A stretch of 64,000 nt of DNA from Methanolobus sp. WCC4. Lineage in GTDB: Archaea > Halobacteriota > Methanosarcinia > Methanosarcinales > Methanosarcinaceae. Location of the stretch: assembly GCF_038022665.1 (NCBI RefSeq), contig NZ_CP150629.1, positions 2,338,480 through 2,402,479 on the forward strand, given 5' to 3'. The notes below the pieces were generated by a model that saw only the letters and a list, made by a program, of their open reading frames with translations, searched no databases and was not told where the DNA came from. The position numbers and the translations under genes are program-made. Every line of letters begins with the position of its first letter. Position 1 is the first letter of the stretch. This document shows, in pieces, positions 3,841 to 54,966 of the stretch.

Positions 3841-6252
3841 TTAACATTCCCCCTTGCAGAGTCTCTTTACGTTAGTAGGCTGGGCAGAAACATCTGCCTT
3901 CATTGCCGGACCGGAAATGATCTTCTTACGCTTCCAGTCGACCTCCCATCCGTGTTCTGCCTCAAGGATCTTGAGAAGCTCCTCACGCTTTGCAAGCGGA
4001 AGGTCTGTCTCTGTCCTTACGAACCTGTACCAGTCCTCAGGCATGTGACCGAGGTACTTCTGACTGAGCTCCATGTAGTGGGTCAGTTTGATCATCCTTC
4101 CCATGCTGTTGTCAGATGGACGGATACAGTTCTTTGCAAGCATCGGGAAGAGTTCCTCAATGGACTCAGCGGTTGTGAGCAGGAACTCAGGTGCGGATGG
4201 GATAGGCATCTCTGAACCGTCCCTTGCATCGTATACCTTCCATGCTGCTTCATCATATGGCTTACCGATGAGTGCCCTTCTGTACTTGGAACCGTGTGGT
4301 CCGACAATTACAGGTATACCGAGCCTGTTACATCCTGAACCGATCGCAACTGCCTTCTGTGAGTATGCTCCCCATGCTACACCGACAGCACCGATACGGT
4401 TTGTGATGTAGTCAGCGATCTCCTCATAGTTACCTGTAACATTCCTCTGAGCGAAGATGGCAGCTACCTTGATCGCTGTTCCTGTGATGTGTGAGTTGGA
4501 GACACATGAACCTACATTGATGAGGTTACCGGCAAGGAACTTTGCAGGATATTTCTCATAGAGGGTCTCACCGTCCTCGTTCTTGTACATACCGAGGTCC
4601 ATTGCTGAACATCCGGACATGACGACGATGTAGTTCCTCTTGAGCATCTCATCTGCAACCTTGTACAGGTCCTTTGTACCGTTAGGATAGTTGGAACATC
4701 CTACCATTGCAATGATACCTGGAGTTGTACCAAGAACAAGGTTGACACCTTCCTCACGGATCTCAGGGTCACTGATCTGTCCTCTTCCTGCACGTACAAT
4801 ACCCTTCTCTTCACTGATGAGTTTCTGTGAAGCCTTTTCTATCATGTTGAGGACAGGGATATCCTTTGGACATGCCTGGTCACATCTTCCACAACCGATA
4901 CAGAGGTCGTGGAGTTCCTCGAACTTGCGGAAGTCCTTGTCAACACCATCTTTCATGGCTGCCATGATCGGAAGGTTTACAGGACAGTCAAGTTCACAGG
5001 CACCACACTGGACACATTTCTCTGAAAGTTCCTGAAGTTCCTCATCGCTTGGAAGTGCGGTTATACCCATGTCGTCACGTATCTTTGACATCTTGATAGC
5101 AAGTTCAGGTGCTACCTCTCCAAGGGTATCGAAGTTGAGAATAAGTGCTCCGGGGTCCTTGAAGGTTGAAAGGTCTTCAATGATCTCTGCTGCACTGTCA
5201 TTTGACCTGTTAGGCAGACCGTACATGATCTTCTCGTTCGTTGTGATAACAGGGATAGAGAGTTTCTTTGCCTCGTCAAGGACGTCAGCCCTGACACACT
5301 GTTCATCCACAACGATCACATCAGGTACACCGGACCTGATCATCTTGAGTTCCTTTGCAAGGGTACCGATGATCTTAGCGTGTGGCTGACCACCCTTCTC
5401 AGCCTGGTAACGTGTCATGTCAAGAGCAGTACAGCACAGTCCTGCAAGCTCGATCTTGTCATCGAGGTCATGATCGTGTATGTAATCCATGATATAGGTT
5501 ACACCGGAGACGTTGTGTCCGATAACAACAAGCACTGGCTTCTGGGGATCGATGCATCCCATTCCGATCTCAACGAGTGGTGTGTCGGTCTCAGCCTTTG
5601 GCATTCCGAGACATGACATCTGTGCAAGGTCGGATACTTCCATACCTACGTGGTCAAGCATACCACCGTGAAGGATCTTAGACTCGAAGTCAATGGCGGC
5701 TCCTTCCTGCCCTGCGTGGATGGTAGCAAGAAGCTGGTTTACCTGTTCCTCAACATAGTCCATTACCTCTTCGAGGTCACCAAGGGTCTCTGGTCTGATG
5801 CCTGTAACAGCCTGGGTGTTAGGAGCTATGAGGTTTGAAGGTCCTACATCTATTGGTTTGTCACGTCCGTACTTATCGATCAGGTGATGAAGGATGTGAC
5901 GACCGTGTGCAGAGTGTGCTGCAGTACCGGTGATTACTCTCAGAAGGGTCTCACGTGCCTGGTGTGCTTCCATGTTGATACCACATGCACCTTCCTTGTT
6001 ACCGGTAAGGTCACACTTACCAAAGGTACAGTAACAACACTGGTCACAGACAGGAGTGTAAACTGGCTGGTAGCGTGACAGCAGCTTATAATCCCAGTCC
6101 CTGAGACCGGAGATACCCGGTTTAGGAGTTGGACCTACTTCTATTCCTTCTTCCTCTGCTTTTTTCTCAATGGCACCTACGATCTTGCCGATCGTGATCT
6201 GGACGTTTTCCAGTTCGTCAATGGAAAACTTTCCAGCTTCTATGTCGCTCAT
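3841..6252 (-). CDS. cdhA: CODH/ACS alpha subunit (Ni-Fe carbon monoxide dehydrogenase)
   Basis: This is the CO-oxidising or CO2-reducing alpha subunit with Ni-Fe-S C-cluster, 803 residues. Visible motifs are the N-terminal cluster-ligand set CDQCCYC...C...C (residues about 69-90) and two ferredoxin motifs [12 protein letters not shown] (from about 413) and [12 protein letters not shown] (from about 451) that are specific to the archaeal enzyme. Further C-cluster cysteines follow around IGSGCNRLG and [10 protein letters not shown]. The reading frame is open upstream to 6327, but I choose ATG 6252 because AAGGAGGA (6262-6269) lies nine bases before it and the protein then starts [10 protein letters not shown] as in relatives. 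It is the first gene of the operon and is followed without a gap by cdhB. Confidence 0.97.
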
Positions 6253-6382: not shown

Positions 6383-6394
6383 TATATAAAAAAG
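6381..6394 (-). promoter_or_regulatory. Probable TATA box of the cdh operon
   Basis: On the minus strand this reads CTTTTTTATATAGG, a good archaeal TATA box. Start of transcription would fall near 6361, inside the adjacent inverted repeat, about 108 bases before the cdhA ATG. Confidence 0.55.
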
Positions 6395-6631
6395 TTTCCT
6401 AGATCTATCATGATTATTTGTGACCATTCTTTTCAATGTTTCACATAAGGTCCGGTCAATAGAATATATACGTACATATGAGTAATAAGTGACAACAATA
6501 CACGATTTTCACATATAAGTTTTCCGATAAATATCACGATTATTCTTGACAATAAAAAAGCTCTCAAGATGTATTTTTCGGAAACGGTTTTATTTAATGC
6601 CAGTATACCATAAAGAAGCATTAAGAACACG

Positions 6632-51637: not shown

Positions 51638-53266
51638 ATGGCAGGATATGGAAATCAACCAGTAATCATCGTAGATCCAAGTAAAGAGCGCACTACAGGA
51701 AAGGATGCATTATCAATGAACATCGCTTCTGCACAGGCAGTTGCAGGTATTGTGAAGACGACACTTGGTCCAAAAGGTATGGACAAGATGATGGTAAACA
51801 TCATGGGTGACATAACTCTCACCAACGATGGTGCAACCATCCTTGAAGAGATGGAGATCGAACACCCTACCGCAAGGATGATCGTCGAGGTGGCAAAGAC
51901 ACAGGAAAAGGTAGCAGGAGACGGTACTACCAGCGCTGTTGTTCTGGCAGGTGCTTTGCTTGAAAAAGCACAGAAACTTATCGAGACAGGTGTACACCCA
52001 ACTGTTCTTGTCAAAGGATACACTATGGCTACAGAGAAAGCCCTTAGTGTTCTCGACGACTATGCCATAACAGTAGAGAAGACAGACAGGGAAATGCTTG
52101 AGAAGATAGCAAACACCTCCATCACAGGAAAGGCATCTGAGATGGCAGGCGACCACCTTTCAGGTATCTGTGTGGACGCGATCTACGCTATCGAAAATGA
52201 TGGACAGGTAGATGTTGACAAGGATATCGTAATGGAAAAGGAGATCGGCGGGACCGTTCACGACACCGAACTTATCAACGGTATTTCCATCAGGAAGGAA
52301 GCACTTCACAATGAGATGCCACGCCGCATAGAGAATGCAAAGATCGCTCTTATCGATACTGAACTCGTGTTCGCGAAGACAAACACTAACTCCAAGCTCC
52401 AGGTTGACAGTGCTGAACAGTTGTTCGACTTCAAGGAACAGGAAAAGGCAAACTTCAGAAAGACCATCCAGAAGATAATCGACACCGGAGCAAATGTGGT
52501 ATTCTGCTCCAAGAAGATGGATGACTATGCGCTTCACTTCTTCAAGGAAGCTAACGTGTACGCTACAAGGCGTGTAAAGGATGAGGATATGGAAGTACTC
52601 TCATACTCCACCGGTGCGGCACTTGTAAGGAACGTCAATGAGCTCACAGCTGATGATCTTGGATATGCAGAACTTGTTGAGCAGGAAGATGAGCATGAAG
52701 AGAAGACCTACATCAAGGGCTTCAAGGAAGCAAGGACAATGACCATCCTCATCAAGGGCGGTTCAGAACATGTTACTGACAGCGTTGAGCGTGTTTTCGA
52801 TGATGCACTCCATGTTGTAAAGTCCGTTTACGAGGACGGAAAGATCGTACCTGGCGGCGGTGCATCAGAGATCGAGGTCTCAATGGCACTCAGAAAGTAC
52901 GCTGCATCTGTCGAGGGACGTGAACAGCTTTCTATAATCGCTTTCGCCGATGCTATAGAAGAGCTTCCAAGGGCTATTGCAAGCAACTGTGGTTTCGATA
53001 CCATTGACACGATCATCAGCCTGCGTGCAAAGCACGGAACTGTAAAGAATGCAGGACTTGATGTCGAGTCAGGTGATGTTGTCGATATGCTGGACAAGGG
53101 AATTGTAGACCCACTCAGGGTCAAGACACAGGCGATCAAGTCAGCAGCAGAAGCTGCACTTGTAGTTCTTCGTGTTGATGATATGCTCCGTGCAAGGCGA
53201 CAGGCTATGATGGATGTCAAACCTGAGCACAACGTCCATAACTACGACGCTACAGGTATGCTGTAA
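51638..53266 (+). CDS. Thermosome (group II chaperonin) subunit
   Basis: A 542-residue group II chaperonin that folds proteins by ATP-driven lid closure. Motifs: TTLGPKGMDKMMV and TNDGATIL near the start, GDGTTSAVVLAGALL (catalytic aspartate region, near residue 88), and VPGGGASEIEVSMALR near 405. The C-terminus ends DATGML without the Gly/Met repeats of some paralogues. GGAGGTCTGAAGTC precedes the ATG. The preceding promoter and the following strong terminator make it monocistronic. Methanosarcinales carry several paralogues, so I do not assign a specific thsA/B/C number. Confidence 0.97.
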   Translation: MAGYGNQPVIIVDPSKERTTGKDALSMNIASAQAVAGIVKTTLGPKGMDKMMVNIMGDITLTNDGATILEEMEIEHPTARMIVEVAKTQEKVAGDGTTSAVVLAGALLEKAQKLIETGVHPTVLVKGYTMATEKALSVLDDYAITVEKTDREMLEKIANTSITGKASEMAGDHLSGICVDAIYAIENDGQVDVDKDIVMEKEIGGTVHDTELINGISIRKEALHNEMPRRIENAKIALIDTELVFAKTNTNSKLQVDSAEQLFDFKEQEKANFRKTIQKIIDTGANVVFCSKKMDDYALHFFKEANVYATRRVKDEDMEVLSYSTGAALVRNVNELTADDLGYAELVEQEDEHEEKTYIKGFKEARTMTILIKGGSEHVTDSVERVFDDALHVVKSVYEDGKIVPGGGASEIEVSMALRKYAASVEGREQLSIIAFADAIEELPRAIASNCGFDTIDTIISLRAKHGTVKNAGLDVESGDVVDMLDKGIVDPLRVKTQAIKSAAEAALVVLRVDDMLRARRQAMMDVKPEHNVHNYDATGML

Positions 53267-53295: not shown

Positions 53296-53424
53296 TATTA
53301 TTACTATCATTATCTTTTCCTGATACATTTTTATCATTTTTTGTAGCAGTAGCTGTATTCTCCGAAAAGCAATTTGATATTTGTTTAACTACCTACAACA
53401 TACTAGCAAACAAAATACAATGAA

Positions 53425-53489
53425 TAATCATGATAGATTTGCAAAATACTTATATAGCATTAATTCCTAGTATGTCATGATAAATCATG
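53425..53489 (+). promoter_or_regulatory. Conserved promoter and palindromic sites of micro-gene 1
   Basis: TAATCATGA (53425-53433) lies upstream of TATA box CTTATATA (53450-53457); TCATGATAAATCATGA overlaps the predicted transcription start and the ATG. The arms TCATGAT/ATCATGA are perfect inverted repeats. In copies 2 and 3 the upstream box is an extended TGATTAATCA palindrome. These look like operators for one repressor or activator. Confidence 0.6.
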
Positions 53490-53591
53490 ACAGAACAATA
53501 CTACAATAACAACATCGACCTTAGTAAGTTCGCAGGAATGCTCACAGCATTTGCAGCAGCAATGATGGCATACTATTCCTTCATGGCATGA
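53487..53591 (+). CDS. Micro-protein copy 1 (34 residues, single membrane helix)
   Basis: The first of three tandem paralogues. The protein starts MTEQYYNNNIDLSKFAG, followed by one hydrophobic helix (MLTAFAAAMMAYY) and SFMA. The N-terminus is polar and the C-terminus very short, so a single membrane-spanning segment, perhaps with the N-terminus in the cytoplasm, is likely. There is no Shine-Dalgarno site; the TATA box (53450-53457) is centred about 33 bases upstream, so the transcript has only about 7 leader bases. Differences from copies 2 and 3 are mostly synonymous in the first 21 codons, which argues for a real protein. I do not recognise the family. Confidence 0.72.
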   Translation: MTEQYYNNNIDLSKFAGMLTAFAAAMMAYYSFMA

Positions 53592-53793
53592 TCTGTTATC
53601 TGCCATGAAGAATTTCTAATTATTCTTTCCTCCAATCCTTCTTTTCATGTTATTTATCTGGCCACCCGCAGGTTCATCTTTCTACATGGCAGTAAAGAGA
53701 ACAGACTGATCCGGAAAAACAACAGAGCATTTATGGCCACTTGAGATACGTTCAAGCTCATTTTCAAAATAAAGGATAAAATCAGTTGGAAAT

Positions 53794-53861
53794 GATTAAT
53801 CATGACAGATTTACAAACATTTATATACCTTTAATTCCTAGTACATCATGATAAATCATGA
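53794..53861 (+). promoter_or_regulatory. Conserved promoter and palindromic sites of micro-gene 2
   Basis: TGATTAATCA (perfect palindrome) upstream, TATA box at 53820-53827 and TCATGATAAATCATGA over the start codon. The order and spacing equal those of copies 1 and 3. Confidence 0.6.
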
Positions 53862-53962
53862 CAGAACAATACTACAACAACAACATCGACCTTAGCAAGT
53901 TTGCCGGAATGCTCACAGCATTTGCAGCAGCAATGATGGTATACTATTCCTTAATGGCATGA
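53858..53962 (+). CDS. Micro-protein copy 2 (34 residues, single membrane helix)
   Basis: Second tandem paralogue, identical to copy 1 in the first 27 residues at protein level. It differs at two positions: Val for Ala at 28 and Leu for Phe at 32. Base changes at codons 7, 13, 15 and 16 are silent, evidence of selection on the protein. The TATA box TTTATATA is at 53820-53827 and the start-codon palindrome is complete. The helix runs from about residue 16 to 32. Its stem-loop (ATGGCA...TGCCAT) covers the stop codon. Confidence 0.72.
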   Translation: MTEQYYNNNIDLSKFAGMLTAFAAAMMVYYSLMA

Positions 53963-54095
53963 TCTGTTATCTGCCATGATAACATTGTTATAATCATTTC
54001 CTCCAACCCTCTTTTTGCATTCACTTTTCCGGACAGCAGCGAAGCTGTTCATTCTGAAGGATACGTTTCAAATATAGAACATAATTAATAGAAAT

Positions 54096-54164
54096 GATTA
54101 ATCATGATAAATACACGCAACTCTTATATACTATCAATCCCTAGTACATCATGATAAATCATGA
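54096..54164 (+). promoter_or_regulatory. Conserved promoter and palindromic sites of micro-gene 3
   Basis: TGATTAATCA upstream, TATA box at 54123-54130, and TCATGATAAATCATGA over the ATG. Between these conserved sites the bases differ from the other copies, so the sites are under separate constraint. Confidence 0.6.
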
Positions 54165-54265
54165 CAGAACAATACTACAACAACAACATCGACCTTAGTA
54201 AGTTTGCCGGAATGCTCACAGCTTTTGCAACTGTAATGCTGGTATACTACTCCTTCATGGCATGA
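54161..54265 (+). CDS. Micro-protein copy 3 (34 residues, single membrane helix)
   Basis: Third and most divergent paralogue. The first 23 residues match the other copies; the helix then reads TVMLVYYSFMA, replacing AA with TV, Met with Leu and Ala with Val, all conservative for a membrane segment. Silent changes at codons 15, 16, 21 and 30 again point to a coding sequence. CTTATATA at 54123-54130 is the TATA box and lies about 34 bases from the ATG. The stop codon sits in a hairpin loop. No gene for a partner follows on this strand until 56224. Confidence 0.72.
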   Translation: MTEQYYNNNIDLSKFAGMLTAFATVMLVYYSFMA

Positions 54266-54369
54266 TCGTTGTCTGCCATGAGATAATTCCAGCCATTATT
54301 TTCCTCCAATCTTTTCTGTACTTTTTCAGGCCTTATCCTGTAAATCCTGACTATTCCAGAGTCTACTGA

Positions 54370-54966
54370 TCAGAGTTCATCATCTGAAAGACCATAGAAA
54401 TTCCTGTAGTCCTCAATAGCCTTTCTGGCCTGCTTCGGATACCTCTCAAGCATGCATTTCAGGAACTCATCCCTTGAAGTGAACTCCTTCATCCTTTTGA
54501 TGATCCTTGTTGCATACTCTTTCGAAAGGGCATTGCCCTTCTGTATCTCGAATGTCAGGCAGAGAGCATCCTGCGGGAAATACTTCCTGCGAACGTATGG
54601 AGCTACAGATCCCAGAAGCACATCATGGTCAAGCCTGCTGAATGCCGGTACGCCAATACGCTGCAACCTTTCAGCACCTGTGAGTTTCTCAAGATTCTCA
54701 GCAGAATAGGAATGGATCTCGATATAAACATCCGGCCTGAGCTCTTCCACAGCCTCTATGATAACTGTGCCGATCTCAGTGAAATAACTGTCATCAAGTG
54801 TAGAGATATAGTTACCTTTGCTCACAAGAGGAATAACTGCAAGTGTTCCTTTCTCTGGAGCATCTATATTCTCAAGTATATCCGTGGTATCCTTCCATTC
54901 CTCACCATGCAGACCTGCCACGAACAACCTGACAGGTTCGCCTTCTCCAAGTATCCTGTATGACAT
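54370..54966 (-). CDS. DUF2119 family protein
   Basis: A 198-residue archaeal protein of the DUF2119 family. VAGLHGEEWKDT near residue 17 and YIEIHSYSAENL near 100 carry His and Glu residues arranged as in M14/aspartoacylase-type zinc hydrolases, to which the family is distantly similar; KGTLAVIPLVSKGNYIS is the intervening strand region. A zinc-dependent amidohydrolase or carboxypeptidase role is therefore an inference. It lies 41 bases after the S4-methyltransferase gene on the same strand and is convergent with the third micro-gene. Function unproven. Confidence 0.85.
   Translation of the reverse strand: MSYRILGEGEPVRLFVAGLHGEEWKDTTDILENIDAPEKGTLAVIPLVSKGNYISTLDDSYFTEIGTVIIEAVEELRPDVYIEIHSYSAENLEKLTGAERLQRIGVPAFSRLDHDVLLGSVAPYVRRKYFPQDALCLTFEIQKGNALSKEYATRIIKRMKEFTSRDEFLKCMLERYPKQARKAIEDYRNFYGLSDDEL

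Follow-up and report, generated by a model that had tools for sequence, protein, structure and literature searches.

Three tandem microgenes in Methanolobus sp. WCC4

In the window (the whole 64-kb stretch of DNA analysed), three ORFs of 34 codons were found head to tail on the plus strand (Table 1). They are flanked on one side by a thermosome subunit gene (51638-53266) and on the other by a DUF2119 gene on the opposite strand (54370-54966), after which comes a TlyA/FtsJ-like methyltransferase gene. All three ORFs are contained in a 226-nt direct repeat with spacings of 371 and 303 bp and identities of 85% and 72%. Residues 1-27 are identical in copies 1 and 2, and residues 1-23 in copies 1-3, while silent differences among the three copies occur at codons 7, 13, 15, 16, 21 and 30. 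The amino-acid differences (residues 24, 25, 27, 28 and 32) all lie within the hydrophobic part or the tail. The initial annotation had described three tandem 34-residue micro-genes with three TATA boxes, the same shared residues and silent codons, and changes confined to the helix or tail; each of these points was recovered, the shared residues and silent codons by codon comparison.

Table 1. Coordinates of the microgene and cdhA features in the 64-kb window
Feature	Position	Strand	Basis
cdhA, CODH/ACS alpha subunit	3841..6252	-	TIGR00314, 1097.9 bits
Box ATCATGATAGAT, proximal cdhA (CODH/ACS) operon promoter	6403..6414	-	Box search
Weaker second box ATCGTGATATTT, distal cdhA promoter	6529..6540	-	Read from sequence
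Promoter box 1, copy 1, ATCATGATAGAT	53427..53438	+	Box search
TATA box, copy 1	53450..53456	+	Read from sequence; position conserved
Promoter box 2, copy 1, GTCATGATAAAT, one base 5' of start codon	53474..53485	+	Box search
Copy 1 ORF, 34 aa, MTEQYYNNNIDLSKFAGMLTAFAAAMMAYYSFMA	53487..53591	+	ORF translation, homologues, pN/pS
Hairpin, copy 1, overlaps last codons and stop	53579..53610	+	Hairpin alignment
TTTCCTCC stretch 3' of hairpin, copy 1	53626..53633	+	
Promoter box 1, copy 2, ATCATGACAGAT	53799..53810	+	Box search
TATA box, copy 2	53820..53827	+	Read from sequence; position conserved
Promoter box 2, copy 2	53845..53856	+	Box search
Copy 2 ORF, 34 aa, MTEQYYNNNIDLSKFAGMLTAFAAAMMVYYSLMA	53858..53962	+	ORF translation, homologues, pN/pS
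Inverted repeat ATGGCA/TGCCAT, copy 2, shortened hairpin; lone-strand fold prefers other pairing	53954..53977	+	
TTTCCTCC stretch, copy 2	53997..54004	+	
Promoter box 1, copy 3, ATCATGATAAAT	54101..54112	+	Box search
TATA box, copy 3	54123..54130	+	Read from sequence; position conserved
Promoter box 2, copy 3	54148..54159	+	Box search
Copy 3 ORF, 34 aa, MTEQYYNNNIDLSKFAGMLTAFATVMLVYYSFMA	54161..54265	+	ORF translation, homologues, pN/pS
Hairpin, copy 3, overlaps last codons and stop	54254..54282	+	Hairpin alignment
TTTCCTCC stretch, copy 3	54300..54307	+	

When the single peptide was used as the query against 186 genomes of the order, 18 genomes had matches, all of them Methanolobus. A profile (A2) search raised the tally of confident matches to 19 of 27 Methanolobus and 6 of 6 Methanomethylovorans genomes, with one weak match (G129) excluded. 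No family member was found outside these two genera at E <= 0.01 among 238 genomes of the class, and the viral contigs searched gave no matches. Two weak Methanosarcina matches (E about 0.05-0.1) were rejected, there being no homologous small ORF or promoter at either, and matches to Bacillus and Dehalococcoidia in the genome collection came without the promoter and resembled chance. The initial annotation had recognised no family; in agreement, searches of Pfam, NCBIfam, PHROGs and PADLOC with the peptide gave no match above cut-off, and a PDB profile search with the peptide family gave no matching chain. The family peptides are 33-39 residues long, with one longer, and fall into two branches. 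Branch A is the present locus type, with 1-3 tandem copies between the thermosome and DUF2119 genes in nearly all genomes, whereas branch B is a single copy at another genomic place; the WCC4 genome has a fourth, divergent family member of branch B (MTEYHVNSNTYNFGTFLASLMFALLTYYSFLNYHGVV; G000:C1:2093983-2094093). Branch B, together with the twin boxes, the CODH/ACS link and the 3' hairpin with CCUCC presented below, is an addition to the initial annotation. The family adds a well-supported, previously unnamed group of microproteins to a methanogen lineage.

Selection was assessed by codon comparison in both branches. The pN/pS of the sense frame was 0.30 in branch A (20 distinct sequences) and 0.32 in branch B (15 sequences), and none of 200 column shuffles of branch A reached a value as low as that observed. 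In the 20 branch A sequences the sense frame alone was open, the five remaining frames all being interrupted by stops, and the frame is kept although its length ranges from 33 to 39 codons across the family. The low pN/pS, the shuffle test and the result from two branches therefore indicate purifying selection on the peptide. The initial annotation had proposed such selection, and the homologous frames in related genomes and the low pN/pS that bear on this proposal were both found. Judged by these comparisons, the micro-genes are real: the tandem ORFs are not chance, because the same frame recurs in the 19 Methanolobus and 6 Methanomethylovorans genomes and because the shuffles did not reproduce the observed pN/pS. 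They almost certainly encode a selected peptide. The boxes and the 3' hairpin are better conserved than the ORF interior, as would be expected of a noncoding repeat element in which DNA or RNA is conserved and the ORF is incidental; however, codon-level selection in both paralogous branches contradicts such an element, as does the upkeep of the frame through changes in length, leaving it very improbable. A product of the opposite strand, from a Cys-rich 43-aa ORF (53606-53475) with a strong SD-like GGAGGAAA (GGAGG) upstream of its ATG, was rejected and is practically ruled out, since over the same codons its pN/pS was 0.92, the 20 branch A sequences contained 12 stops in it, the GGAGG-to-ATG distance varied (some 15-28 nt) and no minus-strand TATA was conserved.

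The twin-box promoter and the cdhA box

Upstream of the microgenes, a 12-bp box (ATCATGATAAAT) at about -60 is repeated at -13, the two boxes flanking the TATA box. The box-to-box distance was 46-47 bp in 42 of 44 family promoters. The TATA box starts at -38 in most promoters and at -38 or -40 in almost all, and upstream conservation stops near position -75. Box 2 ends one base short of the ATG, and no SD sequence was seen before the microgene start codon. Leaderless transcripts make up about 16% of the total in Methanolobus psychrophilus, where 19-22 nt separate the BRE/TATA from the start site (PMC5378194); from these distances, transcription is expected to start about 5-12 nt 5' of the ATG, and the microgene mRNA should lack a leader or have almost none. 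The box-TATA-box layout was present at all three copies, which bears out the earlier proposal that each copy has retained its promoter and lends no support to copy-specific control, also suggested there, as all three promoters have one layout.

We searched the 64-kb window for the box, allowing at most 1 mismatch. Seven matches were obtained compared with 1.2 expected, a count equalled in 0 of 100 shuffles; six lie at microgene promoters (one being an overlapping reverse-strand match) and one lies at cdhA. Across the genus, the cdhA box was found at the same TATA distance as microgene box 1 in 20 of 27 Methanolobus genomes (control matches: 0), and the cdhA start was 150-167 nt 3' of the box at all 15 loci inspected. 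Box 2 was seen at microgenes only. A box-like site ahead of a LeuA-type synthase overlaps a different palindrome and was excluded from the count.

There appear to be two tandem cdhA promoters at 6385-6545 on the minus strand of the window, about 125 bp apart, each with an ATCRTGATA-type box, a BRE-like GGAAA and a TATA, and paired cdhA box-TATA units recur in several other Methanolobus genomes. In several Methanolobus genomes, a DUF22 gene (PF01629; G000:C1:2685865-2685900, L062) is likewise preceded by the box with an identical spacing to TATA.

The matching box and spacing suggest that the microgenes are probably co-regulated with cdhA. One factor acting at the microgene, cdhA and DUF22 promoters would be the simplest reading; alternatively, different factors might recognise the box at the different genes. 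Among known regulators of methanogenic pathways is MreA of M. acetivorans (cited in PMC11409679); the papers found contained no description of CODH/ACS regulation in Methanolobus. In the mechanism we propose, one transcription factor would bind the upstream box and set the microprotein and CODH/ACS together, while box 2, overlapping the expected transcription start, would give extra repression or feedback; a protein bound there would block initiation at the microgenes. The box in common with the CODH/ACS operon offers a testable handle on the microprotein family, and the twin box around the TATA a ready-made system in which activation and feedback could be studied at a single archaeal promoter. 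Eight Methanolobus genomes gave no confident family match, and because some of these keep the cdhA box, the peptide is dispensable for CODH/ACS.

The 3' end of the transcript

In branch A, a nearly invariant hairpin (TCATGGCA...TGCCATGA) covers the last codons and the stop; its stem hardly varies, so that covariation is uninformative. Of 28 complete branch A copies, 18 had a CCTCC within 110 nt past the stop, compared with 2 of 50 window genes. It lies some 24-54 nt 3' of the stop, in 17 of the 18 as TTTCCTCC, and is unpaired in only part of the branch A folds. The stability of whole-transcript folds was not uniform (z -4.5 to +0.7). The L016 copy has an unrelated hairpin where the branch A hairpin normally sits. 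In branch B, the 3' hairpin showed 3 pairs changed on both sides, and the region resembles an independent structured RNA.

Two further observations concern these regions. The 3' region of branch B (L061, L065-L074) is strongly conserved and includes GTACCAC and a hairpin (AAATGGAT...ATCCATTT). In branch A, the start region TCATGACAGA (53485-53494) could pair at 9 of 10 positions with the hairpin arm TCTGCCATGA (53599-53608), so that an alternative fold might join the start to the stop.

These features raise the question of a dual-function RNA, in which the transcript would encode the peptide and also carry a 3' hairpin with an exposed UUUCCUCCAAU that pairs with the SD of a target and represses it, like sRNA41 of M. 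mazei. The enrichment of CCTCC in branch A is consistent with such an RNA, as are comparable stretches 3' of several Methanomethylovorans copies, the near-invariance of the branch A hairpin, the other hairpin in the same place in L016, and the conserved hairpin of branch B with its paired changes. In M. mazei, sRNA41 represses ACDS translation and masks ACDS ribosome-binding sites (PMC5867862), and many sRNAs contain translated sORFs (PMC11456600); like sRNA41 and the dual-function candidates of these studies, the present locus combines a small transcript tied to CODH/ACS with a possible SD-pairing stretch. However, the CODH/ACS link in Methanolobus is a shared promoter box rather than RNA pairing. 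Pattern searches of the WCC4 genome and the genus found no shared target, and SD sites matching TTGGAGGAAA...ATG were few, in some genomes hardly differing in number from the controls. Complementarity to CCTCC is common to any strong SD, and the motif is absent from 10 branch A copies and from branch B. The Rfam search gave chance matches only, with no matching family. The recurrent target candidate groES was rejected because it has no match in the WCC4 genome, and rpS24e was rejected with sites mostly in genomes without branch A. Taken with this evidence, a dual-function RNA is rather unlikely. A combined form, in which the CODH/ACS factor would induce near-identical transcripts in a dosage-tuned manner, each of which would encode a membrane microprotein and carry an anti-Shine-Dalgarno tail at its 3' end, is quite unlikely; if true, carbon fixation and methylotrophic energy metabolism would be tuned jointly at the RNA and protein level. 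As a separate observation, a groES match (E <= 1e-10) was missing in 8 of 27 Methanolobus genomes, WCC4 included.

Shape and possible role of the peptide

The peptide has a short polar N-terminus followed by one hydrophobic helix, and the window copies contain no cysteine. AlphaFold2, applied to the three window copies, predicted a single helix over residues 2-33 (mean pLDDT 81). The initial annotation had proposed one hydrophobic helix of 13-17 residues; the single helix held, and its predicted length was greater. The best 17-residue hydropathy mean, 1.4-2.2 across the family, ranged from borderline to clear for a membrane span; branch A, at 1.41-1.65, was borderline. On hydropathy and the predicted fold, a membrane location of the peptide is likely.

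We favour a modulator role by analogy with small M. mazei proteins that act on the Mtr complex. The peptide would insert in the membrane, where it would either belong to a complex of C1/acetyl-CoA or energy metabolism as one of its small subunits or modulate that complex; the modulator role by itself we put slightly below even chances. MtrI and MtrR (PMC12774963, PMC13370731), which serve as the model, are likewise small, Methanosarcinales- or Methanosarcina-restricted, and located at the membrane Mtr complex. MtrI has 68 aa and an N-terminal four-Cys zinc ribbon, in contrast to the cysteine-free window copies, and the PDB profile search gave no relation of the peptide to solved MtrI; MtrR (49 aa) is hydrophilic, unlike the hydrophobic-helix peptide of Methanolobus. 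The sORF microproteins of M. mazei (e.g., membrane-associated sORF_05; PMC11456600) are likewise unannotated, shorter than 70 codons, from the same archaeal family and predicted to form a hydrophobic helix, whereas no sequence relative of the Methanolobus peptide was found in Methanosarcina genomes. Tandem triplication and a twin-box promoter are not described in the part of PMC11456600 used for this comparison. As a whole, the reading of a multi-copy, single-helix membrane microprotein that is co-regulated with CODH/ACS and modulates a membrane complex stands at about even chances.

A toxin-like peptide, as the initial annotation had suggested, would instead make the locus a type I module silenced by antisense RNA. 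The Ldr and Ibs genes of Escherichia coli are tandem hydrophobic-peptide type I toxin genes of similar size. The microgenes resemble them in being tandem genes of about 35 codons, each with its own promoter and a single-hydrophobic-helix peptide, and their copy number is lineage-specific. However, a search within 150 nt downstream of the ORF found no conserved minus-strand TATA box for an antisense promoter, whereas the sense TATA is fixed. The syntenic locus is stable across the genus, the promoter box is common to a metabolic operon (cdhA), in which the microgenes differ from Ldr/Ibs, and there was no PADLOC match. These results make a toxin module highly unlikely.

In the membrane-modulator reading, tandem copies would raise dosage. 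High dosage had also been suggested initially; it agrees with the variation of 1-3 copies and remains a proposal. In multi-copy genomes, the closest relative of a copy was mostly another copy from the same genome, and tandem duplication or homogenisation therefore recurs. In the Methanolobus MAG DJKA59 (L181, about 6400), a two-box promoter was observed ahead of an apparent 9-codon ORF (MIEYNTGHR), which is possibly a decayed family member.
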